This document shows positions 10,893-27,838 of a stretch of DNA of 27,838 nt, piece by piece. This DNA is from a virus. The notes below the pieces were generated by a model that worked only from the letters and a program-made list of their open reading frames with translations, was not told the origin of the DNA and did not search any database. The stretch covers positions 1 to 27,838 of the IMG/VR virus record IMGVR_UViG_3300042895_002539, one strand, 5' to 3'. The position numbers were made by a program, and so were the translations under genes. Positions within the stretch are counted from its first letter, which is position 1; every line of letters starts with the position of its first letter.

Positions 10893-11198
10893 TTAGCTAT
10901 CCCAACGAATAACGAATGTAATATCTGTATTAGACGGAATTGGGTAGGGAGTAGAAAGCTTTCCAACTACTAATAATTCGTCAACATCGTTGTATAATCC
11001 TACTGTGGTAGCGTAAGGTCTGAAGTTGGATCCGGTCACTACGTCTATGTAGGAACCAGAGGTACCGTCCTTTATGGCACTTGGATTTAGGGTATAGTTA
11101 AAATCATTTTCATTTACTAGACACCTAACTTCGTTTTGGTAGATAGTTGATTCCGCCAAAAAGGAGATGGAATATGGAGTGGCTTGTATTACTGGCAT
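10893..11198 (-). CDS. Small virion protein, paralogue of a structural C-terminus
   Basis: A 101-residue protein that aligns by eye with the last 80 residues of the product of 23097-24140. NENDFNYTLNPSAI (29-42) corresponds to RNAEYNYTSNPSLI, YATTVGLYNDVDELLVVGKLSTP (62-84) to FITTVGMYNTNNELLAVAKLSKP, and ITFVIRWDS (93-101) to ALIRVKLDW. This looks like a beta-rich phage structural module used both alone and as the C-terminus of a larger protein. It is probably part of the tail or baseplate, judging by the cluster. Start ATG follows the leader AATATTTATACTTAGC. Confidence 0.65.
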   Translation of the reverse strand: MPVIQATPYSISFLAESTIYQNEVRCLVNENDFNYTLNPSAIKDGTSGSYIDVVTGSNFRPYATTVGLYNDVDELLVVGKLSTPYPIPSNTDITFVIRWDS

Positions 11199-11212: not shown

Positions 11213-13453
11213 TTAGTTCTCTCGTCTTTCCTCAGGTGTATAATGAGCTATTCTATTATGATTTATTGGACTAGCTAATAATACCGCAGGTTTTAAATTT
11301 CCCTTTTTAGTCTCTTGGAACATATAACTCATCCAAGTCTGTTCGTAGGGGCGATCCCACGTTACGTCTAAGAACATCTTCTGATTGCCCTTCTTTCCAC
11401 ATAATGTTGGCCAATTGCAATAGTATATTTCTCCTTTAACATAAGACAGACCGTCTACGACTTCTATTGTGTCTAATTTTGTTTTAGGACAATTAAGATC
11501 CAAACCCGCAGTTGGCAATCTATCGTAATCTGGCCAGAATTCTGATCTTACCGATTGAGGAACATTGTACCATGACACTTGAATGTTATTGTCCATGTAT
11601 ACTTCCGTGTAAGATAACTTTAAAAAATCTATATCTGAACCTTCCACGATCTTTAAAACTTTATCGTACAAATTCGGTACATAAGTTCTAAATCCGTTTC
11701 TACAAATCCCTTCAGAGGCCTCGTATATTCCCATATCGTCTTCTAAGAACAGATAATAATCGCTATCCGACTCTTGAAAATGTTTAGCAGCTCTAAATCT
11801 TCCACCATTTATTCCAGTATTTTCGTTGGTAATAATATGTTCAAAGTTATATTTGTCACATATCTCTTTATTGGCAATTCTTGCTTCTTCGTTGGTAGAA
11901 TTGTCTATTAATATATTTCTTGTTTTTGTCAACCAATTATCGTGCTTCAACCAAGTTTGAATGGTATGTTCTACTTGATGAGGGAAATTAAAAGTTAACA
12001 TGTACACAGAAACTTTTAACTTACTAGGATCTACTGTCTTCTTGTATAATTTAATATTTTTTTCCGGTATGGGTTCTAATACTACTTCGTTCTTAGCCAA
12101 TGCGTCTATAAATTTAACAACTAAGCCGTTATCGTCCAAAGCGAACCTTCTAAATTTTTCAGGTTCCAAATAAGACATAATAGTGAATATGCTTTCTTCA
12201 GTGCCCATGTATCCTGATTGTAAAGTATCGTTGACCAAATGCCAATACGTACCGTTAGCACTTCTAATAGCATCGATATGTCCACCGAATAAACCGCCTC
12301 GACAAACGTACTCTACTTTAGATCCAGCGAATCTATTCATGCCGTCTATTTTAAAACCATGAATTTCGTCTCTAGCTTCGTAAGGGTAACTTAAGAATAA
12401 GAACGGATCCAAATGTGGAATTAAGTTATCCAGCACTTTATCGTCGGTAAAATATTTTTCGTAAACCGTATTAGTAATTCCAGCGTCTAACCAAATAAAA
12501 TAATTGGATTGAAAAGGATTCCACACAGTAACGTTGTGAAGCATGCTAAACTTGGACATTACTATTGGATTGTACCATTCTGATACTGCTTGAGGACTAT
12601 TCTTTAACCATCCACCTTCTCCTGTTAAATTTAACCATTCTTCACTCGTTCTAATTTCTTGAGTTTTATCCCAAAAAGAACTGTAAAGATTTTTCATATC
12701 AGATAATTCCCAAACTTTAACGTAAGTGTTATGCGGACTTCTTATCTCCCAAACTATGTGTTCGTATTCTTCTGGAATATGCACAAACATTGCGACTTCT
12801 GTCTGTAGTATTTTTCTAAAGTGAGAAAGGTACTCTTCAAAAGATCTACCTGGTCTGCCTATATCCCAAAGACCTGTTACAACGGTTAAGTCCGATTTAA
12901 CTGTATCTTTTCTTGGGCCTTCTATGATCGGCACTATATTTTTGTTAGCTTCGTTATCTTTTACAAAAACTCCATAATCGTATCTAGTGGCCAATGCTTT
13001 GAAACCTTTATATTTTGCTAAAAAACTTTCTTGAGTTAATTCTGTTTGTTTATGTATTTCAAGATCGTTGTCAAAATGCGCTTCTTGTTCTGAATTATAG
13101 GGAATAGCTATAATTAAATCGTTACACTTATCGTATAATTTTTCTACTAATTTGATACCGTCTTCTTCTGATATGTGTTCTAATACGTCTCCAAAAATAA
13201 TTAAATCGTAATAATTAAATTCAAAATCTAAGATATTCTGAACGAATACATTTGCGTATTTTTCTCTTAAACCGTATCTTTCTACGTAGGGCTCGAAACC
13301 TTCTATTGCGTCCATCTTATAAAAGTGATCTTTAAGATAGTCAAAATATATACCTGCACCGGCTCCAATATCTAACACAGAACTAGTGCGATTGAATTTA
13401 TTTTTTATGAAATTTAAAGTTTCCTTTTTATAAACATTTGTTGAAAACGGCAT
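11213..13453 (-). CDS. Methyltransferase / HtrL-YibB / GT2 fusion protein
   Basis: A 746-residue fusion of three enzyme-like domains. Residues 20-165 form a class I SAM methyltransferase: VLDIGAGAG (26-34) binds SAM, LIIFGDVLEHI (84-94) is the motif IV region, and CNDLIIAIPYN (110-120) follows it. Residues about 188-445 match the HtrL/YibB family: VVTGLWDIGRPG (191-202), YFIWLDAGI (318-326) and GGLFGGHIDAI (386-396), a glycosyltransferase-related fold found in capsule and LPS loci. Residues about 478-746 are a GT2-like GT-A domain: KVSVYMLTFN (480-489), ILIDNST (514-520), ENTGINGGRFRA (544-555) and the DxD-type LEDD (570-573). It probably transfers and perhaps methylates sugars on a phage glycan. 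It starts one base after the upstream stop (TAAGATG). Confidence 0.75.
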   Translation of the reverse strand: MPFSTNVYKKETLNFIKNKFNRTSSVLDIGAGAGIYFDYLKDHFYKMDAIEGFEPYVERYGLREKYANVFVQNILDFEFNYYDLIIFGDVLEHISEEDGIKLVEKLYDKCNDLIIAIPYNSEQEAHFDNDLEIHKQTELTQESFLAKYKGFKALATRYDYGVFVKDNEANKNIVPIIEGPRKDTVKSDLTVVTGLWDIGRPGRSFEEYLSHFRKILQTEVAMFVHIPEEYEHIVWEIRSPHNTYVKVWELSDMKNLYSSFWDKTQEIRTSEEWLNLTGEGGWLKNSPQAVSEWYNPIVMSKFSMLHNVTVWNPFQSNYFIWLDAGITNTVYEKYFTDDKVLDNLIPHLDPFLFLSYPYEARDEIHGFKIDGMNRFAGSKVEYVCRGGLFGGHIDAIRSANGTYWHLVNDTLQSGYMGTEESIFTIMSYLEPEKFRRFALDDNGLVVKFIDALAKNEVVLEPIPEKNIKLYKKTVDPSKLKVSVYMLTFNFPHQVEHTIQTWLKHDNWLTKTRNILIDNSTNEEARIANKEICDKYNFEHIITNENTGINGGRFRAAKHFQESDSDYYLFLEDDMGIYEASEGICRNGFRTYVPNLYDKVLKIVEGSDIDFLKLSYTEVYMDNNIQVSWYNVPQSVRSEFWPDYDRLPTAGLDLNCPKTKLDTIEVVDGLSYVKGEIYYCNWPTLCGKKGNQKMFLDVTWDRPYEQTWMSYMFQETKKGNLKPAVLLASPINHNRIAHYTPEERREN

Positions 13454-13454
13454 C

Positions 13455-15221
13455 TTAGTAAATTAATTTTTTAGTATTTTCGTGAAACATGTAACCCTCC
13501 GACTTAACCTTATCTATTCTATAGTTTAATACTTGACCTTCGTCTCCTATTAATCTATATGTAGTATCGTCACCCTCTATGTTAAATTCTATAACAAGAG
13601 ATTTTTTAACTCCGTAACAAGGATCCGGTATAACACGACCCATGGTATCCATAGCCACAATAATGCCGCTAACTCCTTTGCCTTCGTTATTATTTATATT
13701 CTCTTGCACAAATTCTGTGAAATCCACCTCGTTAGTTTCCGTAGGTCTATTTCTATCGTGTTCGTTTTCAGGCTCCATTAAAGTCATAAACTTAGCGGAT
13801 TTTAAAATCATTCTTTTATCTGCTAAAGAATTAGGATTTTTATATGATGCTTCTGGAATAGAAGTAAATTTATCCCTCCATCCAAATCTTTCGTAAAATT
13901 GATAGCACGTATAATCCACTCTAAACATATTGATCCATGCTTCACTAGACCATCTATCGTATGTACTTTCGTAAGGATATGGATTGTGTCTTAAGTAATG
14001 CGAGTTAGCCCACCAAAAATTACCACTAGGCCAACCTCTACCAAAACTATCTGATACATTACATTGATCGTATACTTTTAATTTTTCCAAGCAATTTTTA
14101 TAGTTATCAATCATATAGTACTTGAGCATTTCTATGAATGACGCATCGCCAATCCTCTTCCATTCGGAATGTTCGTTGGTATCAGTAGGTACATTAGTAA
14201 CTCCTTTACTATGGAAGTACATAATAAGTCCATCACTTTTTTGAGACTCTATCCATGCTTTTACAATACCGTAATGTTCGAATCTATTATCGTAAGCTTT
14301 AGTAAAATGAACTTTATCATGGCCTTCAAATACTTCTAATATTTTATTGTAGCTTTCTTCGTCTTCTCTAAATTCTAATGAGCATACTACGTGCATTTCA
14401 TCAAGATCATTGTACAAGCCTGATTCTTTAATGCGCTCTAAATCTTTTTTGGCTAAGTTGATAAAGTCTCCTTTGCAGTAAATAAAGTAGATAACTTTAA
14501 TTTTTTTCGTCTTATCAAATTCTCCATATTTGGCTTCGTAGATTTTATCTATGTCCCTATTTTTACTGTAAGCGTATGCGTAGGCATGGAATATAAAACT
14601 ATTGGGACCGTATCTGTGACTATTAAAAACGTTTCTATCTAATATTTTTATGCGATCTTTTAAAGACAGATCTTTTTTAAACATTACGGCTAAACAAGTT
14701 TGTTCGTGCCATAAAGAAGACTTAAATATATATCTCATTTCAGGCACATGCATTCCACCTGCCCAGTTCATTAGATCGTTAGCTTCCTGACCAGAGGTAT
14801 CCAATCTAGCTTCCCACCACTTCGATAAAAATTCTTTGGACCAATCATTATTTTTAATTAAAATAACTCCAGTGTTTGCAATGCTGTGTGCGCCTACATC
14901 ATCAGCCAAAATTAAATCGTAGGCATCGTCTACATATTTTTCTATTCTCTCTGATATGTTGCAAAATAATGCATCGATGTCCAAGAACAAGTACCAATCA
15001 TAATCTGGTTTTTCATTGATAACTTCATTCAATAGGTTTACTTTGTACCACTGAATGGACATTTCTTCTTTATTGCAAAATATTTTTATCTTATCGTTAT
15101 CTTTTTCTATGTGATAATCGTAACCATTCTTATCACAATATTGTTTATTTAATTGTTCTGAAAACGGAGCGTATTCTAAATTATCTGTATAGTATTGTAC
15201 TACTAAAATTTTCTTTTTCAT
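13455..15221 (-). CDS. GT34-like glycosyltransferase with a second GT-type domain
   Basis: A 588-residue protein. Residues 1-235 resemble the GT34 (galactosyltransferase GMA12/MNN10) family: KILVVQYYTDN (4-14), YDWYLFLDIDALF (74-86) with DID at 81-83 as the metal/UDP-sugar DxD motif, and SIANTGVILIKNNDW (113-127). Residues about 240-470 form a second domain of a type often found with glycosyltransferases. It has YFHSKGVTN (335-343), SEWKRI (352-357) and SGNFWWANSHYLR (399-411), which recalls proteins annotated as sugar transferases in polysaccharide loci. The C-terminal ~100 residues are a separate segment. The start is one base from the upstream stop (TAATATG). It probably extends the glycan begun by the GT60-like enzymes upstream. 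Confidence 0.65.
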   Translation of the reverse strand: MKKKILVVQYYTDNLEYAPFSEQLNKQYCDKNGYDYHIEKDNDKIKIFCNKEEMSIQWYKVNLLNEVINEKPDYDWYLFLDIDALFCNISERIEKYVDDAYDLILADDVGAHSIANTGVILIKNNDWSKEFLSKWWEARLDTSGQEANDLMNWAGGMHVPEMRYIFKSSLWHEQTCLAVMFKKDLSLKDRIKILDRNVFNSHRYGPNSFIFHAYAYAYSKNRDIDKIYEAKYGEFDKTKKIKVIYFIYCKGDFINLAKKDLERIKESGLYNDLDEMHVVCSLEFREDEESYNKILEVFEGHDKVHFTKAYDNRFEHYGIVKAWIESQKSDGLIMYFHSKGVTNVPTDTNEHSEWKRIGDASFIEMLKYYMIDNYKNCLEKLKVYDQCNVSDSFGRGWPSGNFWWANSHYLRHNPYPYESTYDRWSSEAWINMFRVDYTCYQFYERFGWRDKFTSIPEASYKNPNSLADKRMILKSAKFMTLMEPENEHDRNRPTETNEVDFTEFVQENINNNEGKGVSGIIVAMDTMGRVIPDPCYGVKKSLVIEFNIEGDDTTYRLIGDEGQVLNYRIDKVKSEGYMFHENTKKLIY

Positions 15222-15222
15222 A

Positions 15223-16302
15223 TTAACATACGGTATAAGCTACACTAGGCCACTGATTTCTTTTTCTCATGCAGCCAATAAGTTCTTCGTTTATTTTTAA
15301 AAATTCCTCTAATGTTTTTGCTGGAAGTAAATTGACTCCTTTTCCATTACAATCCGGATCAAAGTGCCATGGCGGTCCCCAAAATCTATCTTGGAAAAAT
15401 ACTCTTAATTGATACAAGCGTCCTGGAAAATGGGATAACTCAATATCGTTTATTTGACTTGTTAAAGCCAAAGGAATAACATCGCATAACATATAATTAC
15501 CGCATCTATTAACATCGTACAATCTTGGCTGTTCTAAAAACAATTTATAGATATCGTTATAAGAATTAAAGAATCTATCTAAAGTTTCTACATTTTCAAA
15601 ATTGTAATATCTAATGCAACCTTCCAAAGTGGCCAATTCTTGCAATATATTCCAACGATCTAATTCGCCTCTCTCTTCATAGTACTTGTAAGTTACCGCA
15701 GAACAAGCCTGTAAAACTTTTGTGCTATCTGTAGATCCTATAGTTTTACCGTAGATAAATTCCATTTTTTGTTGATCGTCCACTTGACAAAATTTGATAA
15801 CTTCGTAACCAGATCCTCTAATGGAATTAACTTTAGTATCGAACACACTCCAATACTCTTCTTCTGATATCGCTCCTGAAACTAATCTATTGTAAGGTAT
15901 TTCTACGTCGCTATCTATAAAAAGAGATTTATTAATTCCTAGTTTAGATATATTTTTAAGATTATATCTTTGAAGTCCATAACTAGGCAGCAATTTTTTT
16001 TCGTCGCTATTGTATCTTAGTTGTTTAGCATATTCGTAGTCGTCGATCTTTTCCTCAGGAAGAGGTTCGAATGTTTTACTAAATTCGTCGTCTTTTCTTA
16101 AATCCTCTATATCCACCACATCTATAATCATATCTCTCATAGATTGATCAAGACCAACAAAGTCGTTTACGTGATCAGTCAATACTACGTATTTCATCAA
16201 TGGATTATAGCCCGACTTCAAAGCCTCTTCTATTTGAAATTTAATTCTATTTCTATAAGTAGGACCAAATCCCCAAGTCGATATAATGATATCTTTATTC
16301 AT
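15223..16302 (-). CDS. Putative glycosyltransferase with DxD motif
   Basis: A 359-residue protein with GT-A-like features: an N-terminal KDIIISTWGFGPTYRNRI (3-20) start, KYVVLTDHVND (37-47) typical of a second strand, KSLFIDSDVEIPYNRL (125-140) with D130-S-D132 as the DxD motif, and a C-terminal HFDPDCNGKGVN. It does not give a clear family assignment. Its position within an unbroken row of glycosyltransferase genes (TAATATG junctions) supports a sugar transferase role. The nucleotide sugar is not identifiable. Confidence 0.55.
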   Translation of the reverse strand: MNKDIIISTWGFGPTYRNRIKFQIEEALKSGYNPLMKYVVLTDHVNDFVGLDQSMRDMIIDVVDIEDLRKDDEFSKTFEPLPEEKIDDYEYAKQLRYNSDEKKLLPSYGLQRYNLKNISKLGINKSLFIDSDVEIPYNRLVSGAISEEEYWSVFDTKVNSIRGSGYEVIKFCQVDDQQKMEFIYGKTIGSTDSTKVLQACSAVTYKYYEERGELDRWNILQELATLEGCIRYYNFENVETLDRFFNSYNDIYKLFLEQPRLYDVNRCGNYMLCDVIPLALTSQINDIELSHFPGRLYQLRVFFQDRFWGPPWHFDPDCNGKGVNLLPAKTLEEFLKINEELIGCMRKRNQWPSVAYTVC

Positions 16303-16303
16303 A

Positions 16304-17572
16304 TTAAATTTGATGTTCTACCCTTTCGCACCAACCTCTTTCGTTGCTATACGCCCAAAAAACAACTCTTTTTGGATCTTTATCCGTTAAGAAAAATTCT
16401 TCGTAATGTATTTGTTGACCTTTATGCATAAAGTTTTCTAATTCAAAACCTGTTATGTATTTTTGATTCAATGCTTCACCGTTCTCATCATCAAAAGCAA
16501 TCAAAATATGATTATAATCCGCGCCAGGCAAATCGTGTCTGTGTACAGTTACTAAATGATAAAAAGATTTCATGAAAGATTGTTCCCATAAATCATTGTC
16601 TTCTATCAGAGGATTTGGAGGATAGTTATTATCTAATGTATACTTCTGAACCGCTCTCTTTTTAAAGTTAAAACCTGCGTACTTTTCGTAATCTCTTAAG
16701 GTTCTAACTGTTCCTAAATCGTATCCCGTTAAATCTATATTAGGATCTTCCTCTGTTCTTAATAGTACTCTAATCTTCTTTCTTGCTAAGTCTTGTTTAT
16801 TGAACCAATCCACGCCTAACTTATGATCGTCATCCCATTTCAACATGCCTGCTCGCTCTTCTCTCATTGTAGAATGCCAAACAACTAATTTGTGAGGATG
16901 GAATAAATCGTATCCGTGAGTGTAAGATCTAACAGTTAGGTTTAATTCTTCTCCACTAAAGTAAATGTCTGGATCGTGCCTAATCTCCTTTGCCCATTCA
17001 GCTCTTGCAAAACAGAAGTGACCTGACAAGAATCTACTCATTGGTGGTTCTGTCATGTCTTGCCAACCGTGTAATAGTCCTGGTCTAATGAATATTGTTC
17101 CGTGAGGGTAGAAACATGCAAAGGTCTGCTGCCATGGCTCCATAGTGCGTCCTTCTGGATCGTTAAACGGAGTATACAATGGCAAATAAGCCGCTAGGAT
17201 TGGTTTGTAGCCTTGAGCTTCTAAACCGCTATGCATTTCGATTAGGGTCTCGTCCCAATTCTTTGCGAATCTGTGATGCGAGTCCAATTGTAATATATAA
17301 TCTTGGTTGGTTAAAAGCTTTTCGTTAATTTGAGCCCTTGCCCAAGGTAAACCTTTTGCTTCTTTGTACGGAACTTCTAGAACATGAAAACGTTTGTCAC
17401 CTTCGAATTCTGTCAAATCGTCGAATCCATCTGTTTCACAATATTGCTTACAAATACCAAAGTGAATGCGCTTTGGGTATTTAGCATTTTCCAATGCATT
17501 TTTTATGGTTGGTACCAATTCCGGATCTCGGTAAGCTGGTAAGTGTACAAATATAGTTGATTTTTTACTCAT
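16304..17572 (-). CDS. GT60-like polypeptide GlcNAc-transferase homologue
   Basis: A 422-residue protein matching the GlcNAc-transferase family PF11397 (CAZy GT60). The marks are TIFVHLPAYRDPELVPTI (6-23), IHFGICKQY (36-44), GLPWARAQI (74-82), DYILQLDSHHRFAKNWD (91-107) with Asp-Ser-His in the place of a DxD motif, FLSGHFCFA (181-189), and YFSGEELNLTVRSYTHGYDLFHP (204-226) with conserved Glu208-Glu209. Eukaryotic GT60 enzymes put alpha-GlcNAc on hydroxyproline of Skp1 or on Thr of mucin-type proteins. A paralogue lies directly upstream, with an 8-base overlap. The repeat protein at 18882-21941 is a possible acceptor. The C-terminal ~100 residues resemble no known module. Confidence 0.8.
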   Translation of the reverse strand: MSKKSTIFVHLPAYRDPELVPTIKNALENAKYPKRIHFGICKQYCETDGFDDLTEFEGDKRFHVLEVPYKEAKGLPWARAQINEKLLTNQDYILQLDSHHRFAKNWDETLIEMHSGLEAQGYKPILAAYLPLYTPFNDPEGRTMEPWQQTFACFYPHGTIFIRPGLLHGWQDMTEPPMSRFLSGHFCFARAEWAKEIRHDPDIYFSGEELNLTVRSYTHGYDLFHPHKLVVWHSTMREERAGMLKWDDDHKLGVDWFNKQDLARKKIRVLLRTEEDPNIDLTGYDLGTVRTLRDYEKYAGFNFKKRAVQKYTLDNNYPPNPLIEDNDLWEQSFMKSFYHLVTVHRHDLPGADYNHILIAFDDENGEALNQKYITGFELENFMHKGQQIHYEEFFLTDKDPKRVVFWAYSNERGWCERVEHQI

Positions 17573-18830
17573 AATTTATTTTTTGTTCTATTCTTTCCAA
17601 CCAATCTTTTGTTTTAGAATGTGGCCAAACTCTCCAAGAATAAGGTTTCTCTGAATTTTCAAATTCTCTCCAAATGTGAATAAATTTATCTTCTGGATCG
17701 GAATTCATTAAGCTCTTTATTTCTACTTCAGATATGTCTTCTCTATATAAATCTTCTCCATTTTCCTTTAAAAAAGACACTGCAAAATTATCGTAATCGG
17801 TTTCTATTAAAGATCCTTTGTAAATGTCAATACAGTGTTTTTGTTTGAATGCTAACCCCGATTCATAATCTCCTTTTAACGGCGGAAATTTATTATTTAA
17901 AGTTTCTTGATGAATTTGTCTCGTGCTAAATTTTAAACCTGCATAAGCTTCGAACTCGTAAAGCTGTCTTACTTTACCAAAACCGTACTGGCCCATCACA
18001 GCATTTCTTTGACAAGGCGCGCAACCTGGGTCCATTCCAAAAAGTTTTCTAAATCTTGTATAAGACTCGTCGTCCTTTTGTTTCCAATCTTGACTGTCGT
18101 CCCAATGTTTTTTCTTTCCAGATCTAGTGTATTCGTGCCAAACTATGGGTTTGTGAGGAGAAAACAAGTCGTATCCGTAAGTAAAGGCTCTTGCCGCTAA
18201 AGAGCTTTCTTCTCCATGAAAGTATAAGTGAGGGTCGTAAGGGACTTCTACAGCGAAGCTTCCCAAAGTAAAAATAAAGTGAGCAGAAATAAATCTAGCT
18301 CTAAAAGGTTCCGTTAATCCTTGCCAATTGTCTATGTGATGAGGTCTTAGAAATATTGCGCCAGCTGGCATGAATCTATCTATATTCAATCCCCAAACTT
18401 CATTAACTCTACCGTTAGGATCGTTTTCAGGAAAGTATCCAGGAATATATGCAGACAGTACTGGTTTTTTGTGACCTTTACACCTTAGATAATTTAACCA
18501 ATCTTTTAGTGTTGCGTCCCAGTTCTTTGAAAATCTGTGATGGGAATCTAATTGGAAATAGTAATCTTCTCCGTTGTAATACTTTTGTATTTCGCTTCTC
18601 ATCCAACAAACACCTTTAGCGTCTTTGTAATCGACGTCTATTATGGTGAATCTTGGATCGTATTCGTATTTTTCCAAAGTGTCCCAAGCGTCTTCTTTGG
18701 AGCGCTGCCACCCTATACATATGTGAAGATCCTCAGGATTCTTTGCGTTAGAGAGTAGGTCTTCTAGTGTGGGTAGTAGTTCGGGGTCTCTATAAGAAGC
18801 AATTGAGATAAAAATTTTACTGTTTTTCAT
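17565..18830 (-). CDS. GT60-like GlcNAc-transferase homologue, second copy
   Basis: A 421-residue protein collinear with the product of 16304-17572. It has IFISIASYRDPELLPTL (6-22), ICIGWQRS (37-44), GVCWMRSEI (73-81), DYYFQLDSHHRFSKNWD (89-105), FISAHFIF (about 180-187) and YFHGEESSLAARAFTYGYDLFSP (about 204-226). The same catalytic positions are kept, but the nucleotide sequence differs strongly, so this is an old duplication. Two copies suggest separate acceptor sites or sequential sugar additions. A Shine-Dalgarno-like AGAAAGG lies 6 nt before the start, rare in this window, and may mark the first gene of a transcript of glycosyltransferases. Confidence 0.8.
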   Translation of the reverse strand: MKNSKIFISIASYRDPELLPTLEDLLSNAKNPEDLHICIGWQRSKEDAWDTLEKYEYDPRFTIIDVDYKDAKGVCWMRSEIQKYYNGEDYYFQLDSHHRFSKNWDATLKDWLNYLRCKGHKKPVLSAYIPGYFPENDPNGRVNEVWGLNIDRFMPAGAIFLRPHHIDNWQGLTEPFRARFISAHFIFTLGSFAVEVPYDPHLYFHGEESSLAARAFTYGYDLFSPHKPIVWHEYTRSGKKKHWDDSQDWKQKDDESYTRFRKLFGMDPGCAPCQRNAVMGQYGFGKVRQLYEFEAYAGLKFSTRQIHQETLNNKFPPLKGDYESGLAFKQKHCIDIYKGSLIETDYDNFAVSFLKENGEDLYREDISEVEIKSLMNSDPEDKFIHIWREFENSEKPYSWRVWPHSKTKDWLERIEQKINYE

Positions 18831-18881
18831 AACGTACCTTTCTGTAATATAACTAATTTACTTTATTTTTTCAAATTTAAT

Positions 18882-21800
18882 TTAAGGACATGTTGTAACT
18901 GGAGTAGTTGCAGTACCTTGAACGTAATTTTGTGTTGCTGAATAAGTCGGTGTTAAAGAAGCTATATCAAATGTTGATGTATATTCTCCTATATCTGCTC
19001 CACCAAAAGTAATCCCTCCACTACAACTAGTTCCACTGTATATAATTACTGAATCATTTATTGTGTTAAATAGATCTCCGGTCCATAGGAATTGAACTGT
19101 AACATTTGTATCAACATTAACATTACCAGTAGTCCAAGCATATACTGTTATGTCACCGTTTCCATCTGCAGTTGTTTGTGTTCCTATATTAATAGTTACA
19201 GGAGTAGGACATGCTGTATAGTTGTTTATTGTACTACCATCTAAATCGAATGAATATCCATCTTTGAAGAAATATCCTCCATTATTATCCCATAAATCAT
19301 TACTATAACTATTAGCATACAATGTTGTACCAGCTCCAAAAGTACCATCATAATAAACAGTGGCAGCTATACCACCTGTTCCTGTTGTGCAAGCGGAAGC
19401 TGATGACGCAAATCCTACTGGGTTATTTGTTTCACCGCCGGAATAACTATCAAAGTATATAGTTGCAGAGTTTGCATGATTTGGTCTACAAACTGGTTCT
19501 GGAGCGAAAGTGCCGTTATTTATAGCGCCAAATACCTTATAAGTAATGCCTGGTAATGGAGTGAAAATATAACTATGTGTAGTTCCGTTTGGAGTAGATG
19601 GATTAATAAAAAGACCGCTGCCAGCTGTTATACCTGTTGATGTATTAGTTATAGAAAGAGTTAAGTAAGCACCTGTTAACGCTCCCCAATTTGAAATAGT
19701 TGAAAAATAGGTCATTGTAACTGTATGAGATGTATTAGCAGTTACACTATAATTAGTTGATTGTATCTGCCATGCTCCAAGACCACGACATCCTACAGTT
19801 GTAGATCCTTGATTTATAAATGTATCAGTAGAGAATATAGCTCCGTTACTATCAAGTTGAGTTTGACCTGGTACATATACTCCTGTCATATTACTGGAAT
19901 CGGTATTAGAATCGTAGTTTTGATGGTATAATTGTATAGTGGCCGGTATTGGAGAAGGCGTCGGTGTTATACTAGGAGTTACTGTAGAAGAGGGAGTAAC
20001 TGTAACAGACGGAGTAACTGTAACAGACGGAGTAATACTGGCGCTTGGAGTTATACTTGCTGATGGTGTAATACTAGCCGATGGTGTAATACTAGCTGAC
20101 GGCGTTATTGATGGCGTTCTTGTAACTGAAGGCGTAATGGTAACACTTGGAGTTATCGTAACACTAGGAGTAATACTAGCGCTTGGAGTAATAGAAGGCG
20201 TAACGGTAACTGATGGAGTTCTAGTTACAGAAGGAGTAACTGTAACAGAAGGAGTTATACTTGCACTTGGAGTAATACTTGCTGAAGGAGTTATACTAGG
20301 CGTTCTTGTAACCGAAGGTGTAACGGTAACTGATGGGGTTCTAGTTACAGAAGGAGTTATTGTTACTGACGGTGTTATCGAAGGCGTCCTTGTAACAGAC
20401 GGAGTAATTGTTGCCGAAGGAGTTTGACTTGGAATCGTTCCGCAAATTCCTCCTAATATATAAGCGCCTCCAGTAGGAACAGATCTAGAACATACTGGTC
20501 CGTAAGATGCTCCACCTATAACCTGTTGATTTTGTAAAACTCCAGTAGTACAATCATACCACGAATAAGTGGTAGTTGTAGAAGGAGTTAATGTATAGTT
20601 GTAGCAAGCAAAAGGCGTAGTTGTAACGCTAGGAGTGATTGTTACGCTAGGAGTAATAGTCGCAGATGGAGTAACTGTTACGCTAGGAGTAATAGACGGT
20701 GTTACAGTAACCGAAGGAGTAATACTTGCAGAAGGCGTAATTGTAACCGAAGGAGTAATACTTGCAGAAGGCGTAATGCTAGCTGACGGTGTTATAGAAG
20801 GTGTTCTGGTAACGGATGGAGTTACGGTTACACTTGGAGTTTTGCTAACAGACGGAGTAATACTTGAAGACGGTGTAACTGAAGAGGTTACCGTTACGCT
20901 TGGAGTAATACTTGGCGATGGCGTTATACTAGCGGAAGGCGTAACAGAAGATGTAACTGTAACTGAAGGCGTAACCGTAACTGATGGTGTTATTGATGCG
21001 CTTGGTGTAATGGAAGCACTTGGTGTAATCGAAGGCGTCTTAGTAATTGACGGAGTCACTGTCACGCTAGGAGTAACGCTTGCGCTAGGCGTTATAGAAG
21101 GCGTAACGGTTACAGACGGTGTTACAGTAACTGATGGGGTTACAGTTACACTAGGAGTTACGCTTGATGATGGTGTTATACTAGCCGATGGTGTAATAGA
21201 TGCACTAGGCGTTATTGAAGGGCTAGGAGTAATACTAGCGCTAGGTGTTATAGAAGACGTTACTGTAACGGAAGGCGTAACTGTAACAGAAGGCGTAACT
21301 GTAACAGATGGAGTAACTGTAACCGAAGGCGTAATACTCGCAGATGGAGTAATAGACGGAGTAACAGTAACTGAAGGAGTAACGGTAACCGAAGGCGTAA
21401 CTGTTTCTGAAGGAGTAACAGTAACAGAAGGCGTTACCGAAGGAGTAACAGTAACTGAAGGAGTAACAGTAACACTAGGAGTAACAGTCACACTAGGAGT
21501 AACAGTAACACTAGGAGTTATTGATGAACTAGGTGTAATTGTAACAGAAGGAGTAATACTCGGTGTAACTGTAACGGATGGAGTTACGGTAACAGAAGGC
21601 GTAACCGTAACCGAAGGTGTAGCTGTAGGCGTAATAGTAACCGAAGGAGTAATAGTAACACTAGGAGTTACTGTAACTGAAGGCGTAACACTTGGAGTAG
21701 GAGAAGGACTTTGAGGAACTAAAAATACCTCTACAAAATTAGTATTTGCAAAAGGATTCAAATTTTCTAATACAACTCTAATAGTAAAAGCATTTATATC

Positions 21801-21941
21801 CACCGTATATCCAGAAATTAAATCAGCTAAAGATACATCAGACGCTACTAAAACCATTGGATTAACCAGGTCTAAATCGTAGTATACATTAAATGGACCT
21901 ACTGCATCCCCATAATTCGTAAGTTGTATTGTTACTAGCAT
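18882..21941 (-). CDS. Mucin-like Thr/Ser/Pro-repeat virion protein
   Basis: A 1019-residue protein in five parts: a beta-rich N-terminal domain (1-77); a repeat block of about 365 residues built from hexapeptides such as SVTVTP, SASITP and SVTRTP; a Cys-containing insert of about 60 residues (CYNYTL..., CTTGVLQNQ...); a second repeat block of about 160 residues; and a C-terminal region of about 350 residues with Cys pairs (SACTTGTGG..., YTACPTP..., TSCSGG...). The C-terminus looks like a phage adhesion or receptor-binding part, and the N-terminus would attach it to the virion. The Thr and Ser every 2-3 residues and the lack of charged residues are typical of heavily O-glycosylated stalks. 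It is followed by two GT60-like genes. No signal peptide or membrane segment is seen. Confidence 0.75.
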   Translation of the reverse strand: MLVTIQLTNYGDAVGPFNVYYDLDLVNPMVLVASDVSLADLISGYTVDINAFTIRVVLENLNPFANTNFVEVFLVPQSPSPTPSVTPSVTVTPSVTITPSVTITPTATPSVTVTPSVTVTPSVTVTPSITPSVTITPSSSITPSVTVTPSVTVTPSVTVTPSVTVTPSVTPSVTVTPSETVTPSVTVTPSVTVTPSITPSASITPSVTVTPSVTVTPSVTVTPSVTVTSSITPSASITPSPSITPSASITPSASITPSSSVTPSVTVTPSVTVTPSVTVTPSITPSASVTPSVTVTPSITKTPSITPSASITPSASITPSVTVTPSVTVTSSVTPSASITPSPSITPSVTVTSSVTPSSSITPSVSKTPSVTVTPSVTRTPSITPSASITPSASITPSVTITPSASITPSVTVTPSITPSVTVTPSATITPSVTITPSVTTTPFACYNYTLTPSTTTTYSWYDCTTGVLQNQQVIGGASYGPVCSRSVPTGGAYILGGICGTIPSQTPSATITPSVTRTPSITPSVTITPSVTRTPSVTVTPSVTRTPSITPSASITPSASITPSVTVTPSVTRTPSVTVTPSITPSASITPSVTITPSVTITPSVTRTPSITPSASITPSASITPSASITPSASITPSVTVTPSVTVTPSSTVTPSITPTPSPIPATIQLYHQNYDSNTDSSNMTGVYVPGQTQLDSNGAIFSTDTFINQGSTTVGCRGLGAWQIQSTNYSVTANTSHTVTMTYFSTISNWGALTGAYLTLSITNTSTGITAGSGLFINPSTPNGTTHSYIFTPLPGITYKVFGAINNGTFAPEPVCRPNHANSATIYFDSYSGGETNNPVGFASSASACTTGTGGIAATVYYDGTFGAGTTLYANSYSNDLWDNNGGYFFKDGYSFDLDGSTINNYTACPTPVTINIGTQTTADGNGDITVYAWTTGNVNVDTNVTVQFLWTGDLFNTINDSVIIYSGTSCSGGITFGGADIGEYTSTFDIASLTPTYSATQNYVQGTATTPVTTCP
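19945..20432 (-). repeat. TPS-repeat block 2
   Basis: About 490 bases of imperfect 18-bp (six-codon) repeats encoding x-T-P-S-(V/A/S)-(T/S). Wobble positions differ between copies. Variants with Arg (VTRTP) are concentrated here. Confidence 0.9.
20613..21712 (-). repeat. TPS-repeat block 1
   Basis: About 1100 bases of six-codon repeats encoding (S/A)-(V/I)-T-(V/I/K/R)-T-P-like units with no charged residues except occasional Lys/Arg. The protein units are far more alike than their codons, since Gly/Val-codon wobble bases on the plus strand vary between copies. Confidence 0.95.
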
Positions 21942-21971: not shown

Positions 21972-23090
21972 TTAGCATGGTCCTCCTGCTACTGTTACTT
22001 CTCCAACTGTATTAATTATGAAAGAGTAAGCGGTTCCAACTCCGCCAGCTCTCAACGCAATCCAGTTACCATTTCCATTAGTTAGTGTGCCTGGATATGA
22101 ATCGTAGAATAAATCGCCTGCTACTATTGAAGCTAAGCTAGATTTTAAAGAGTAGTACGCTCTAGTACTAGTTATGTTAAAACAAGCATTCGCTTTACTA
22201 CTGTCATCAGGGGTCGATCTACCTAAATAAGCGTATATTGTATTACCGCTAACCGATGGCGTAACAGTAACTGATGGAGTTACGGTAACTGAAGGAGTAA
22301 CCGTAATTGATGGAGTTACGGTAACTGAAGGAGTAACCGTAATTGAAGGCGTAATTGTAACTGATGGGGTTACGGTTACACTAGGCGTTATAGAAGGAGT
22401 AACAGTAACTGATGGTGTAACGGAAGGCGTAACTGTAACAGAAGGAGTTACAGTAACTGATGGCGTAACGGTTACACTAGGGGTTACGCTTGGTGTAGGA
22501 GTAGGCGCAACTATAGAAACTGTAAAATTAAAATTATTATTAAATAACGCAGAAACATAATCTTGATTAGTGAATGTAATTATACCTTGAGAATATAATA
22601 TATTTCCAACATGAGCGTAATTGGCTTTTGCGTCTATAATATTTCCATTACCGTCATCTATTAATTTATAACTAGTACCATTAGTACTAGATATTGCTAG
22701 CGTATTTCTACTTATATTTTCTCCAAATACCGTTCTTGGAATCGCTAAAAAACTAGTTCTTGCATTACTGCCCGTAGAAAAAATTCTAATATCTGCGTCC
22801 ATACTTCCAGACGCCGCTGTGGATTGTAAAGAAGAATCCCATGCACTACCAGTTCCCAATAAAGATCCTGTTATATAATTGGTATAGTAAAGCTGTTTAA
22901 CTAACCTATAGTTGTTATTATAAGTCATAGCGGTAACTGGGTCTAAACTTGCTGTAGGACCGTTAACACCGCCGTTTATAGTAACTCCTAAGTCTGAAAA
23001 AGATTGGCTTGAGTAAGAAGCTGAATACTTTAATTTTATTGGAGTGGCAGTTATGTCAGAAAACCGTATAGTATTCTTGGATAAACTCAT
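21972..23090 (-). CDS. Phage structural protein with short TPS stalk
   Basis: A 372-residue protein. Residues 1-195 are a beta-rich structural domain of the type that recurs in large phages of Bacteroidota (FLAIPRTVFGENISRNTLAI at about 114-133, YKLIDDGNGNIIDAK, HVGNILYSQGIITFT). A TPS-repeat stalk of about 87 residues follows. The C-terminal ~90 residues form a Cys-bounded module: NACFNITSTRAYYSLKSSL, GDLFYDSYPGTLTNGNGNW, and a final GGPC. The same 'AC...YY...G..LY/FY..S..G...C' layout occurs near the end of the 1019-residue protein. It looks like a fibre-like virion protein; the stalk and tip may be exchangeable parts. Six bases separate it from its upstream neighbour. Confidence 0.7.
   Translation of the reverse strand: MSLSKNTIRFSDITATPIKLKYSASYSSQSFSDLGVTINGGVNGPTASLDPVTAMTYNNNYRLVKQLYYTNYITGSLLGTGSAWDSSLQSTAASGSMDADIRIFSTGSNARTSFLAIPRTVFGENISRNTLAISSTNGTSYKLIDDGNGNIIDAKANYAHVGNILYSQGIITFTNQDYVSALFNNNFNFTVSIVAPTPTPSVTPSVTVTPSVTVTPSVTVTPSVTPSVTVTPSITPSVTVTPSVTITPSITVTPSVTVTPSITVTPSVTVTPSVTVTPSVSGNTIYAYLGRSTPDDSSKANACFNITSTRAYYSLKSSLASIVAGDLFYDSYPGTLTNGNGNWIALRAGGVGTAYSFIINTVGEVTVAGGPC
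22247..22508 (-). repeat. TPS-repeat block 3
   Basis: About 260 bases encoding roughly 14 six-residue units (SVTVTP, SITPSV) in the middle of the 372-residue structural protein. The same unit as in the large repeat protein next to it. Confidence 0.9.
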
Positions 23091-23096
23091 TTTTTA

Positions 23097-24140
23097 CTAC
23101 CAGTCTAATTTTACTCTAATTAATGCTTCTTTTGTGAAATCTTTTACTAAGGGCTTCGACAATTTTGCAACTGCCAAAAGTTCGTTGTTTGTATTGTACA
23201 TACCCACGGTAGTGATAAAGGTCTGAGGACTATTCACAAAGTTGGAATATACAAAACTACCAGAAATATCTATTAATGAAGGATTTGAAGTGTAATTATA
23301 CTCTGCGTTTCTAACTCTAACAAAAACGTAATCAGAAGATATAGTCTCTTGAGAATTTAGCGCGAAAGAACTACCAGAATTTATTGTTTCGAAAGCTGTA
23401 TAATTGTTGTATCCTTGGTTTGCGACAGTTACCGCAGAATTCCAAGTGATACCTAAACCACCACCTCCAGTACCAGTCGGTAAACTCAATGCTTTAGGAT
23501 TCAATAAAATCAAACCAATATCAGGTAAGAAAAGACCGTAAGATCCTGAAGGCGTATATCCTTTTGCAGGAGCTCCAGCTATTAAAGGACTATTTGCAGC
23601 AGTACCATTAGAACCCGAAATAATATCGAAAGCTCTACCACAATCTAGATATGTTATTGTAGAAACGTCGTTTGAGTTATCTGTTAATTTTAATTTTTGA
23701 GCGTAAGTACCGTATCCCAATTGTAAATTAAAAGTGCCTGGGAATAAACTACCCTTATATCTATTTCTATCGATAGGAATGGCGATAAGATCTAAAGAAG
23801 AAGTATTTCCGGTGCCAAAGTTTAAGTTAGCAGTAGAATCTCCGTATATTAAATTCCTATACTGTCCAAATGTTATTCTAGTTGGGGTATTTTGCGGTAC
23901 TAAACTATTTAAAGGAACAGATCCTGATCCGTATTGATGACCGTATGCGATAGAAAATTGTACTGCTGCGGCAGTAGCCGTAGAAGCAGTTTGATAAACA
24001 TCTACATAGTAGCTACCGGTAGCGTTTCCACTTAGCGTATAAAAAGAAGTCAAAGTAGGCGCATTGGTGCTCCAAGCCGGTGCCGTTACGGAATCAGAAG
24101 ATATCACAAAATCCGATGAAGCAAATTGAGTAAAAGACAT
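23097..24140 (-). CDS. Phage structural protein (tail/baseplate type)
   Basis: A 347-residue protein rich in Ser, Thr, Gly, Tyr and Asn, with few charged residues and alternating beta-strand patterns, as in phage virion proteins. DLIAIPIDRNRYKGSLFPGTFNLQL (about 116-140) resembles a motif seen in structural proteins of large myoviruses. The C-terminal 80 residues form a module repeated alone as the product of 10893-11198. There is no signal peptide, which fits cytoplasmic assembly. It is 10 nt downstream of the 24151 gene, and is probably expressed with it. Confidence 0.7.
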   Translation of the reverse strand: MSFTQFASSDFVISSDSVTAPAWSTNAPTLTSFYTLSGNATGSYYVDVYQTASTATAAAVQFSIAYGHQYGSGSVPLNSLVPQNTPTRITFGQYRNLIYGDSTANLNFGTGNTSSLDLIAIPIDRNRYKGSLFPGTFNLQLGYGTYAQKLKLTDNSNDVSTITYLDCGRAFDIISGSNGTAANSPLIAGAPAKGYTPSGSYGLFLPDIGLILLNPKALSLPTGTGGGGLGITWNSAVTVANQGYNNYTAFETINSGSSFALNSQETISSDYVFVRVRNAEYNYTSNPSLIDISGSFVYSNFVNSPQTFITTVGMYNTNNELLAVAKLSKPLVKDFTKEALIRVKLDW

Positions 24141-24150
24141 ATGTTAGATA

Positions 24151-24810
24151 TTATAGATTTGTTTTAATAATTGTTACAGGAACACTTATTCTTGCTCCAG
24201 AATCTCTACCAACAACTATCAATGTGGTTTGTAATTGAGAAGCTCCTCCGAATAAAGTATTAACCGTAGTAGCCGTCAAATTTATGGTGGTACCTATCAC
24301 AGTCTTACTTACGTTAGTTCCTATGGTTGTAGTAGCATTTAAAGAAGTAACTTCAGGAGTGTTAATTCCAACTCCAACAAAATTACTCATTGTTCTAACG
24401 TCACCTATCGTTACTACATATCCTGATTGTTCGTAAGTACTTGAAGCTCCTAAATAATTTAAAGTTTGAGGAGTTATAGATAAAGAAGCGCCTTGACGAA
24501 GACTGATATTGTTGTATCCGATATCTAAAACAGGAAGTTTAGCAGTACCCCTAGGTAATGTTATTAGTTTATACCTCATAATCTCAGTGTCGTCAGGATA
24601 TGCCTGAAGGATTGGCATATTTTCTATGGCCTCTCCATAGTAAGCTGATCCTGAAGGATGTGTTGGATTGTACAGGGTATAGTCGATCTCGTCATCGGAC
24701 AAAGAAAATTGCGTGATTTGGAAAGAACCATTGTTTCTGGCCAATAGCTCTCGGCCCTTTTTTGTTAGAATGGCATCCACCACGACTGAAGTACTACTTA
24801 AATAAGACAT
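24151..24810 (-). CDS. Phage structural protein, conserved N-terminus
   Basis: A 219-residue protein. The N-terminus VDAILTKKGRELLARNNGSFQITQFSLSDDEIDYTLYN (about 11-48), followed by HPSGSAYYGEAIENMPILQAYPDD (about 51-74), is a pattern found in virion proteins of large phages of the Bacteroidota and cyanophage T4-like groups. The remainder is Thr/Ser/Val-rich and probably beta-structured. It is presumed to be a tail- or neck-associated protein; the exact position in the virion cannot be read from sequence. A 28-nt leader with AATATTTATT precedes it. Confidence 0.65.
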   Translation of the reverse strand: MSYLSSTSVVVDAILTKKGRELLARNNGSFQITQFSLSDDEIDYTLYNPTHPSGSAYYGEAIENMPILQAYPDDTEIMRYKLITLPRGTAKLPVLDIGYNNISLRQGASLSITPQTLNYLGASSTYEQSGYVVTIGDVRTMSNFVGVGINTPEVTSLNATTTIGTNVSKTVIGTTINLTATTVNTLFGGASQLQTTLIVVGRDSGARISVPVTIIKTNL

Positions 24811-24838: not shown

Positions 24839-27838
24839 TTAAATTAGGTTTTGTTGTTTTAATGCTTTGACTACGTTACCAGAATTTTCTCTGGCTATTG
24901 GATCTATATATTCGGGAAATACTAAACCATCATCGGTAACGTTTGAAGATCCTGAGAATGCGAAAATTAGATTGGTTTCGTCCGGGCTTCTTTTCAGCAC
25001 TATGTATTTAGAGATGTACCCGGGTATGGTATCTGAATCAGTTTCTTTTGGATTTAAAGTTCTATCCAAAGTAAAATCCACGAAGCTAACAGAGCCACTA
25101 TTTCCAAATAACACCTCGTTGACTCTATACTCTGATTCATTATATGATCCCCAACCACTTGTTGCGTTATAAAGTCTGATTAAGTCCATTTGTTCTAGAA
25201 CGAAATTGCTAACCACAGACTCTAATCCTGTTGCAACATTTTGTTCTATAAACATATTATAATATGCAGATTGCGTTGCAGATAGTCTTATTGTTCTATC
25301 ATCTAGTGCGTACCATCTGCTGTCTAAATCTGTAATCGATTCTAAATAAACGCTACTTGAAACTGTTCCTCCACTTGGATTATATAGTTCTTCACTATTT
25401 ATAGTAACTTGTAAATTATCAAAACTGTCCCAATTAAAAGGAGACGCTGGTAAATTTTGATTAAAATAAAATGGAGCTGTCTGCGTTGCTGCAATATAAG
25501 TGGTAAGAGTGTACGTGTTATAGGGAGCAAGATAAAATTTACTTAGATTTTCTACTGTTATGCTAACGTAAGTGTCATATGCAGCGTTAGGCGTCACTTT
25601 AGCAGTTGCCGTAAAATCTACTATTATAATACCAGGTGAAGTTGTACTATCTGCAGTAGCTGAGAATGATCCCCAATAACCTTGATCAGATGGGGATAAA
25701 GTAGTATACGTAGGAGTAGTGGTGCTTGACAACGTAACTATGGGAGTATTTAAAAAATAACGCTTATTATTAGTTAATCCATCTACACTATGTAAAATTG
25801 GATTGTACTTAAAACCGCCCTCATAAAGATTTACCTCTTGATTATTTGTAAGATATTGGGCTATATTGCTATTTGGACTGTAGTTAAACAATGATACGTT
25901 TGTGTTTTCTCCCGACTTAAATACATTTTGTACTGTAAATATATTTTTATTGGCTTTGGTTAAATCTAATACATTTTGTTGATTATCAATAATATATTTT
26001 ATCTGTGCGTTTACTCTGTTGGGTAATTGAAAAGAAGACGAGTACATATCAACCAAATAACCGTATTGGTATTTTAATTTATCAATAGCGGCCGTACTAC
26101 CATAAGAGCTGTCTCCTATTGTATAATCGTTGTAAGTTGCGCTAATTGTTTTTGATCCATAGTATCTAGGAATTGTAAAACTTTGTAATGCGTAGTTTGA
26201 ATCTTGTAGCTCTGCGTAAGGTATATTAGGATTATTGTATGCTGCGTTATTATCGTAACCTGGAACTTGACTTGCGGATATGGATTGAGTTACTATTCCG
26301 TAATTTATAGGCTTAGATTGATTAGATGTGTAATCCAAATCAAAATATTTTCTAGATCTAACTGAACCCGTAACGTTTTGATACAAGGCTATTAAAGAGC
26401 TGGTCAGATTGGATATGGACGCCGCGCTGCTAGATAGGTTATTGTTGTACTCTATCTGAGGGAAACTTTCGTAATTTGTAGCTGTTATTATCGACCCGCT
26501 AAACTCACCGGTAAATTTTTCCACGTCTTGAGAAGAAGAATACGGTACGTATCCGACCAAAGTTAATAGAGGAGAAGTCCAAGCGGTAGATCCAGATATA
26601 GAATTAGCTGCTGATCCGGTTATAGTTACCATTTCTATGGACTGAGAGTACTGATTGATACTCATACTCGGCTCGTTTCTTGCGTACTTGTTTCTCTCAA
26701 GCATGTGAGACTTAATAACTATTCCCGTAGTCACATTGGCTCTCGCAGGCACAAAATCTTTAATAGTCTTAAACAAACTATTGTTATAGAATTTGATCAA
26801 TCTAATGTACTCCCAAACGCTCTTTGGCTTATTATAAGATTGGAAATAAGTCGTCTTTAAAGTGTCTAGAGCAGGATAAGATCCAGATGAAGCGTAAGTT
26901 GGGTTTCCTATATATTGATCTATAGATCCAGTAATTACACCCGATCCAGAGATGTAATCATTTACTGTATTGGAAGGACTAAAAGCAACTTCTATATTAG
27001 TAGAGTTTAATCTATCGTTATTAGAATAGTATTGAAGCGTTGTATCAGGAGAAAGAAGCGAAGATGATATCGTTGTACTTCCAGTCACCTGTCCATTACT
27101 ACCAGTTGCTATTGTTATTTTATAATTTGTAGTGTCTAAATCGTATATACCAGCTGAAGTTTGTCTATCAACTCCTCCGAATTCTTTAACACTTAATATA
27201 GAATCAGGTATACCATAACAAGCAATTAATGCTTTTATCGATCTTTGAGTACCTCTAGTTTTTAATAAATAGGGTAGATTGTGATATAGTCTTTTATATA
27301 ATTCGTCTTGTATTTCTTGACCTGGCAAGGTAGCTATACTAGAAGTTACATAATTTGTAATTAGCTCTGATCCTGTTGGAGGTAATAAACTACCGTCTTG
27401 ATTTATTCCAAATAAAGAATAGTATAGGTTATCTGAAACGCTTGTATTAGTATACAATTCCATTCCCAAACCTTTTAACGCGTCTGAAACCAGATCCAAA
27501 GAAATTCCTGTATTTGGATTGTTGGTAGCATCAAATCTTTTGGTTACGTCTTTATAATAGATCCAAATATTATCGAAGTGTTGACCAATCATATCTAAGA
27601 AAGTAAGATACGGTTGATTATTTGGATCGTCTAATAGATATTGAGGAATGCTGTATCGTAAATAATCCTTATTAGAATAATCATATAAAGAAGCAGAGTA
27701 TAGTACAGATGCAGTCGTAGGCGTAGTTGGAGAATCTGCGGATCCTAACCAATTTGAAGCCTGTGAAGACGAGACAGAATAAAGAGTATAGGGTTGAGTG
27801 TTGTTTCTTTTCGGCCAAGTCCAACTACCAGAGTTAAA
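24839..27838 (-). CDS. Very large virion structural protein (N-terminus beyond window)
   Basis: The frame stays open from the stop at 24839 to the right edge, 999 residues in the window, so the true start lies outside. An internal ATG at 27592 is preceded by 82 open codons (ending in QPYLTFLD) and is not the start. IWIYYKDVTKRFDATNNP at about 90-108 of the visible part, LYKRLYHNLPYLLKTRGTQRSIKALIACYGIP at about 185-216, and Ser/Thr/Asn/Tyr-rich beta stretches are typical of large tail, baseplate or fibre-linked proteins of T4-like phages of Bacteroidota. No catalytic motif is seen. It lies at the head of the visible minus-strand structural block. Confidence 0.7.
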   Translation of the reverse strand, partial: FNSGSWTWPKRNNTQPYTLYSVSSSQASNWLGSADSPTTPTTASVLYSASLYDYSNKDYLRYSIPQYLLDDPNNQPYLTFLDMIGQHFDNIWIYYKDVTKRFDATNNPNTGISLDLVSDALKGLGMELYTNTSVSDNLYYSLFGINQDGSLLPPTGSELITNYVTSSIATLPGQEIQDELYKRLYHNLPYLLKTRGTQRSIKALIACYGIPDSILSVKEFGGVDRQTSAGIYDLDTTNYKITIATGSNGQVTGSTTISSSLLSPDTTLQYYSNNDRLNSTNIEVAFSPSNTVNDYISGSGVITGSIDQYIGNPTYASSGSYPALDTLKTTYFQSYNKPKSVWEYIRLIKFYNNSLFKTIKDFVPARANVTTGIVIKSHMLERNKYARNEPSMSINQYSQSIEMVTITGSAANSISGSTAWTSPLLTLVGYVPYSSSQDVEKFTGEFSGSIITATNYESFPQIEYNNNLSSSAASISNLTSSLIALYQNVTGSVRSRKYFDLDYTSNQSKPINYGIVTQSISASQVPGYDNNAAYNNPNIPYAELQDSNYALQSFTIPRYYGSKTISATYNDYTIGDSSYGSTAAIDKLKYQYGYLVDMYSSSFQLPNRVNAQIKYIIDNQQNVLDLTKANKNIFTVQNVFKSGENTNVSLFNYSPNSNIAQYLTNNQEVNLYEGGFKYNPILHSVDGLTNNKRYFLNTPIVTLSSTTTPTYTTLSPSDQGYWGSFSATADSTTSPGIIIVDFTATAKVTPNAAYDTYVSITVENLSKFYLAPYNTYTLTTYIAATQTAPFYFNQNLPASPFNWDSFDNLQVTINSEELYNPSGGTVSSSVYLESITDLDSRWYALDDRTIRLSATQSAYYNMFIEQNVATGLESVVSNFVLEQMDLIRLYNATSGWGSYNESEYRVNEVLFGNSGSVSFVDFTLDRTLNPKETDSDTIPGYISKYIVLKRSPDETNLIFAFSGSSNVTDDGLVFPEYIDPIARENSGNVVKALKQQNLI

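Follow-up and report, generated by a model that had tools for sequence, protein, structure and literature searches.

The 27.8-kb piece of the uncultured virus record IMGVR_UViG_3300042895_002539 analysed here (hereafter the window) carries on its minus strand a mucin-like repeat protein of 1019 amino acids (aa) immediately upstream of two glycosyltransferase genes of the GT60/PF11397 family, and we suggest that they belong to a phage-encoded mucin-type O-glycosylation module with which the phage would O-glycosylate its own tail repeats (a probability of roughly three in four). In the order of transcription, three tail-region genes are followed by a second repeat protein of 372 aa, the 1019-aa repeat protein, the two PF11397 genes, a cassette of three further genes, a 101-aa open reading frame (ORF) and a SegE-type GIY-YIG endonuclease. 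The original prediction for this DNA had described a 1019-residue ORF with more than 500 repeat residues just upstream of two GT60/PF11397 genes, and this is confirmed by the ORF coordinates, a count of 517 repeat residues and the profile matches; the smaller repeat protein (21972-23090) and the three-gene sugar cassette (11213-16302) had been overlooked.

The mucin-like protein (18882..21941, minus strand) is composed of a 78-aa N-terminal region that probably serves as an anchor, the repeats, and a variable C-terminal tip of about 360 aa. The repeats are of the TPSVTV/TPSASI type and occupy residues ~79-435 and ~501-660 (357 + 160, or about 517 residues), with a short Cys-containing island separating the two blocks. 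Ser and Thr together make up 184/357 and 80/160 of these residues and charged or aromatic residues are nearly nil, which is the composition of a mucin-like protein, i.e. long Ser/Thr/Pro tandem repeats, about half Ser and Thr, with few other residues. The repeat array is not a chance product. Its 30 identical TPSVTV units have 27 different DNA spellings, third codon positions differ in 57% of comparisons against 7% at positions 1 and 2, and the repeat Ser is encoded by both TCN and AGY codons; the codons vary while the peptide stays the same, and selection therefore acts on the repeat protein sequence. Two antisense ORFs (19939-20427 and 20635-21714, plus strand) were rejected as genes, as they are mirror images of the repeat and by-products of its codon pattern. 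The 78-aa N-terminus is common to seven loci and the C-terminal tip only to the near-identical loci L005 and L006, and this combination of a conserved N-terminus and a variable tip is, as judged from the sequences, a tail-fibre pattern. The second repeat protein (21972..23090, minus strand) has an N-terminal domain of ~192 aa, ~95 residues of TPSVTV repeats and a C-terminal domain. Among phages the repeat text varies widely (TPSVTV, PTPTKT, STPTISVT, TPSNTPSIT) while Ser, Thr and Pro are retained. A literature search on mucin-like or threonine/proline-rich phage proteins returned nothing relevant.

The first GT60-type gene (17565..18830, minus strand; 421 aa) starts 51 nucleotides (nt) after the end of the repeat gene and overlaps the second (16304..17572, minus strand; 422 aa, 40% identical to the first) by 8 nt. 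Both match PF11397 far above the cut-off of 21 bits (238 and 191 bits; E = 2e-70 and 5e-56), as well as PHROG 24687 'glycosyltransferase', and the motifs YRDPEL, QLDSHHRF and GEE that had been listed for them are all present. In an alignment of 47 phage GT60s, both window paralogues included, D95xH97 (DSH), H232, G206-E207-E208, W243-D244-D245 and other residues are invariant, and the DxH/His metal motif together with the further conserved residues probably marks the catalytic site. GT27 enzymes, which begin mucin-type O-glycans, hold their metal by a DxH motif and a distant His, and the invariant D95xH97/H232 of the GT60s fits this pattern. For the first GT60 (17565..18830) the structure prediction proposed earlier gave a confident AlphaFold model (predicted local distance difference test, pLDDT, 92; predicted TM-score, pTM, 0.87), whose 32 best fold matches in the PDB are all polypeptide N-acetylgalactosamine (GalNAc) transferases of family GT27 (best E = 2e-10, TM-score ~0.4-0.5). 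We nevertheless do not file these enzymes under GT27, because a PDB sequence search with the 47-row GT60 profile found no sequence-level GT27 match and because Pfam found only PF11397 in the window GT60s, hence no ricin-type lectin domain. Matches of the same profile to fatty-acid-binding proteins were insignificant and were rejected as chance, and a literature search for 'PF11397' yielded only an unrelated alga paper.

The position of the repeat genes is best understood by comparison with the Flavobacterium phages immuto (Immutovirus), the cultured phages nearest to this one in their capsid and tail genes. The immuto gene order is baseplate wedge, 159 to 165, tail fibre, tail spikes and 170 (SegE-like), so that immuto_161 lies three genes from the baseplate wedge gene. 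The window retains homologues of 161, 163, 164 and 170, namely a large tail/baseplate-region protein whose 5' end is cut by the window (24839..27838; immuto_161), a 219-aa protein (24151..24810; 71% to immuto_163), a 347-aa protein (23097..24140; 47% to immuto_164), all three on the minus strand, and the endonuclease at the cassette edge (10370-10870). For the large tail-region proteins PHROGs and Pfam searches assigned no family. The N-terminal domain of the 372-aa repeat protein is related to immuto_165, weakly in pairwise comparison and clearly in the alignment; a structure prediction for it reached a pLDDT of 47, too low for a fold search. The C-terminal ~100 aa of immuto_165 (L439:11018-12091) correspond to the stand-alone 101-aa ORF (10893..11198, minus strand), which the cassette separates from the repeat genes; a single ancestral tail-region gene has been split around the cassette, its N-terminal part being fused to repeats. 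Thus the baseplate/tail genes 161, 163, 164 and 165 are syntenic, whereas the tail fibre/spike genes of immuto, which has neither GT60 nor repeats, are replaced in position by the repeat genes and the glycosyltransferase cassette, placing these within a tail/baseplate operon. The designation of the long repeat protein as a virion protein gains from this synteny as regards the tail region, while its presence in the particle is to be taken as probable from gene order. The 'NAD synthetase' label that PHROG 447 and immuto attach to the endonuclease looks wrong, because its Pfam match is GIY-YIG of the SegE type.

The pairing of GT60 and repeats is far more widespread than a single window can show. 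At least 541 viral relatives of GT60 were found in an alignment-based scan, and 80 were kept. Within the clade to which the window belongs, GT60s mostly come as tandem pairs accompanied by a repeat ORF, which stands immediately upstream of the pair or between its members, while more distant single GT60s often have no repeat gene within 10 kb; the repeat was therefore counted across whole records, as the DNA motif for TP[ST]xTxTP. It is present in 35 of 50 GT60-positive records of all sizes. Among records of at least 60 kb, two or more motifs occur in 26/28 with GT60 and in 0/24 without (Fisher p = 1.5e-12, which overstates the certainty because relatives are not independent; the 28 include the GT60 records that turned up among the controls). 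The survey had been proposed with GT60 phages devoid of repeat proteins as the outcome that would speak against the idea, and the opposite was found. Among 50 T4-like contigs chosen by gp23, the only one with PF11397 has 166 motifs, and among the 49 others one has 2; among 50 contigs chosen by an arbitrary 15-mer, the only one with PF11397 has 31 motifs right beside it, and three others have 4, 1 and 1. Conversely, PF11397 was detected in 19 of 80 repeat-selected contigs (two of them weak matches) versus 2 of 99 control records. Adjacency of GT60 and repeat gene changed at least four times on the maximum-likelihood GT60 tree, and in record G028 the two are associated without being adjacent (repeats at 35-38 kb, GT60 at 110-112 kb). 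Thr/Ser/Pro-repeat proteins as such are widespread in viral contigs (L100-L179), and roughly three in four of the records sampled show no GT60.

Among complete phage genomes (50,697 phage records), GT60 is found in only three, the cultured phages XacN1, RAS14 (a Stenotrophomonas phage) and CM1, which have motif counts of 64, 38 and 38, respectively; RAS14 and CM1 are counted as one case because their motif counts are the same and their lengths and matches very similar. Fourteen related GT60-negative genomes (RaK2, PA5oct, Munch, 121Q, XaC1, immuto and others) have 0 or 1. In Xanthomonas phage XacN1 the GT60 gene is ORF334, with a carbamoyltransferase gene directly after it. Proteomic analysis led its authors to report 'at least two glycoproteins' in the virion (Supplementary Fig. 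S4), which they proposed to be the work of the phage glycosyltransferases ORF328 and ORF334 (PMC5852040). This genome also has over a dozen Thr/Ser/Pro-repeat ORFs, mostly annotated as hypothetical (e.g. ORF174, 180, 232-237, 350, 369, 370, 372 and 384), several of which adjoin tail sheath or head completion genes.

Bacterial and archaeal genomes were scanned as well; 228 GT60 relatives were confirmed, 80 of them were kept, and several of the bacterial ones adjoin Thr/Ser/Pro-repeat proteins. In 13 Burkholderiaceae loci (L481, L494, L496-L498, L500, L502-L507 and L521; about 9.9-18.9 kb), which are orthologous and represent one lineage, GT60 lies ~4 kb from a VgrG of the type VI secretion system (T6SS) that carries a tail of Ser/Thr-Pro repeats at its C-terminus, their text differing by locus (TPTP, PPPSET, TPDE, PEPST, PSDE); Rhs and IcmF genes stand beside these loci where checked. 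By a simple Pro-Ser/Thr tail criterion, 12 of the 13 GT60-adjacent VgrGs carry such a tail, the thirteenth having an AASDEEP-type Ser repeat instead, against 0 of 16 VgrGs of the same genomes with no GT60 in their surroundings (~6 kb to either side, or less where a contig ends). GT60 and repeats are here paired again, in another biological context. A literature search on VgrG glycosylation returned nothing relevant. GT60 genes of Saprospiraceae (L455:8516-9661) and Jiulongibacter (L458:8950-9738) also adjoin TP-repeat proteins, and the Saprospiraceae neighbour has a secretion-sorting C-terminal domain (PF18962).

We favour an O-glycosylation module because of the GT27-like fold, the conserved active site, the co-occurrence across whole genomes, tested against four types of control, and the virion glycoproteins of XacN1. 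What we infer about acceptor, donor sugar, order of steps, location in the virion and function is as follows. Both repeat proteins would sit on the tail of the virion as fibre- or stalk-like proteins, each with a conserved N-terminal anchor and the long one also with a variable tip. In the host cytoplasm, the two soluble GT-A enzymes with their GT27-like fold would place the initial sugar on Thr/Ser residues within the repeats, after which the downstream transferases and methyltransferase would extend and then cap the glycan, giving a stiff, hydrated, glycan-covered 'bottlebrush' stalk on the tail. Its outer sugars would differ from phage to phage, as the GT60 pair is kept whereas the genes downstream of it are exchanged. 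Such a coat might serve for protease resistance, hydration, lectin binding, protection against defences at the cell surface or the display of decoy glycans. Several points weigh against this. The support for the earlier statement that the phage glycosylates its own stalk repeats is indirect, coming from fold and active site, co-occurrence and the XacN1 glycoproteins (PMC5852040). The main text on XacN1 leaves its glycoproteins unnamed and the detection method unstated (PMC5852040), and that phage has a second transferase, ORF328. Repeats are missing from a few GT60 contigs (G030 and G043 among those of 60 kb or more, L025 and L027 among the shorter ones), the bacterial GT60s of Serratia, Enterobacter and Erwinia have no evident repeat gene in the surrounding 10 kb, and related sequences are non-independent data points. 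Finally, 61 of the 80 repeat-bearing contigs have no GT60, partly because the records are fragments, and repeats can therefore exist without the enzyme.

The many repeats without GT60 and the non-independence of relatives also speak for another reading, in which the repeats are plain flexible or rod-like linkers and GT60 and repeats share phage lineages with no functional link. We regard this as unlikely, since T4-like gp23 relatives and XacN1 relatives that are negative for GT60 have no repeats, adjacency arose repeatedly on the GT60 tree, and within the same Burkholderiaceae genomes repeat tails occur only on the GT60-adjacent VgrGs. We also considered that repeat phages without GT60 use another adjacent initiating transferase; this received no support, as Pfam searches on the neighbours of sampled repeat genes in GT60-negative contigs found no transferases or other sugar enzymes, only structural and replication genes.

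The sugar enzymes next to GT60 bear on a different explanation. In the window they are a 359-aa protein with no assigned family (15223..16302; relatives in eight near-clade loci), a probable glycosyltransferase of 588 aa with a GT34/DUF273-like N-terminal half (13455..15221), and a multidomain sugar-modifying enzyme of 746 aa (11213..13453) that combines an S-adenosylmethionine (SAM) methyltransferase, an HtrL_YibB-like domain and a weak GT2 match below the cut-off, and has 30 near-clade protein relatives; all three lie on the minus strand. Elsewhere the GT60 neighbours vary, comprising GT10, GT2, GT34 and GT7 transferases, HtrL_YibB, FkbM and other methyltransferases, a carbamoyltransferase, a GDP-mannose dehydratase and a DegT aminotransferase. 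Phage transferases that alter host antigens are common, and since the cassettes include GT10, GT2, epimerase and carbamoyltransferase genes of the kind usual for surface glycans, the cassette might modify the host surface (O-antigen or another polysaccharide), e.g. for superinfection exclusion, its adjacency to tail genes reflecting a clustering of host-range genes. This seems quite improbable, however, as the initiating enzyme is a PF11397 protein with a polypeptide-transferase-like fold, the repeats track GT60 genome-wide even when non-adjacent (as in G028), and the same repeat association recurs at bacterial T6SS VgrGs. That the GT60s glycosylate phage DNA (DNA glucosylation being well known from T4) or another phage protein, the repeat proteins not being substrates, is hardly credible given that their best fold matches are polypeptide GalNAc-transferases and their genes are tightly linked to structural rather than nucleotide-modification genes.

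A broader proposal, which we put forward tentatively and hold at a little short of even odds, is that PF11397 and Ser/Thr-Pro repeats constitute a general, previously unrecognised mucin-type O-glycosylation module of contractile tail machines, acting on phage tail fibres or stalks and on the VgrG spikes of the bacterial T6SS, and that exchange of the downstream enzymes diversifies the glycan on display. The VgrG association points to the same device on bacterial contractile machines. Mucin-type O-glycosylation is usually held to be a eukaryotic trait; if the module is real, phages would have a compact version with the same enzyme fold and dedicated repeat substrates. It would account for a large class of Thr/Ser/Pro-repeat phage proteins, connect two large groups of so far unexplained genes, make exchangeable glycans a further feature that phages evolve at their tails, and provide a source of soluble, E. 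coli-friendly mucin-type glycosyltransferases. The idea is testable on cultured XacN1 and RAS14 and on the public proteome PXD008065 (named in PMC5852040).

Virus-encoded glycosylation of virions is already known in other forms, and the mucin/GT60 system appears to be both new and widespread. Chlorella virus PBCV-1 likewise encodes its own glycosylation machinery for the capsid (cited in PMC5852040), but it is an algal virus and its target is the major capsid protein, not a mucin-like repeat protein. Mycobacteriophages (Freeman et al. 2023, cited in PMC10955285) and XacN1 share with the present system phage-encoded glycosyltransferases and virion glycoproteins, and XacN1 even the GT60 family (ORF334), whereas the available portions of these descriptions draw no link from GT60 to mucin-like repeats (PMC10955285, PMC5852040).

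The closest enzymatic parallels are eukaryotic. CAZy GT60/PF11397 comprises polypeptide N-acetylglucosamine (GlcNAc) transferases, such as the Trypanosoma O-GlcNAc-transferase acting on mucins and Dictyostelium Skp1 Gnt1, whose acceptor is hydroxyproline. The PF11397 profile covers almost the whole phage enzyme, the DxH motif is shared and a Thr-rich candidate acceptor is encoded next door; the putative phage enzymes differ in being shorter (profile positions ~46-99 are unmatched) and in occurring as tandem pairs. GT27 and animal mucins offer the nearest solved fold, the same DxH/His metal motif and a comparable Ser/Thr/Pro tandem-repeat partner, but the phage GT60s have neither a PDB sequence match nor a lectin domain, and their partner would be a phage tail-region protein in place of a secreted mucin.

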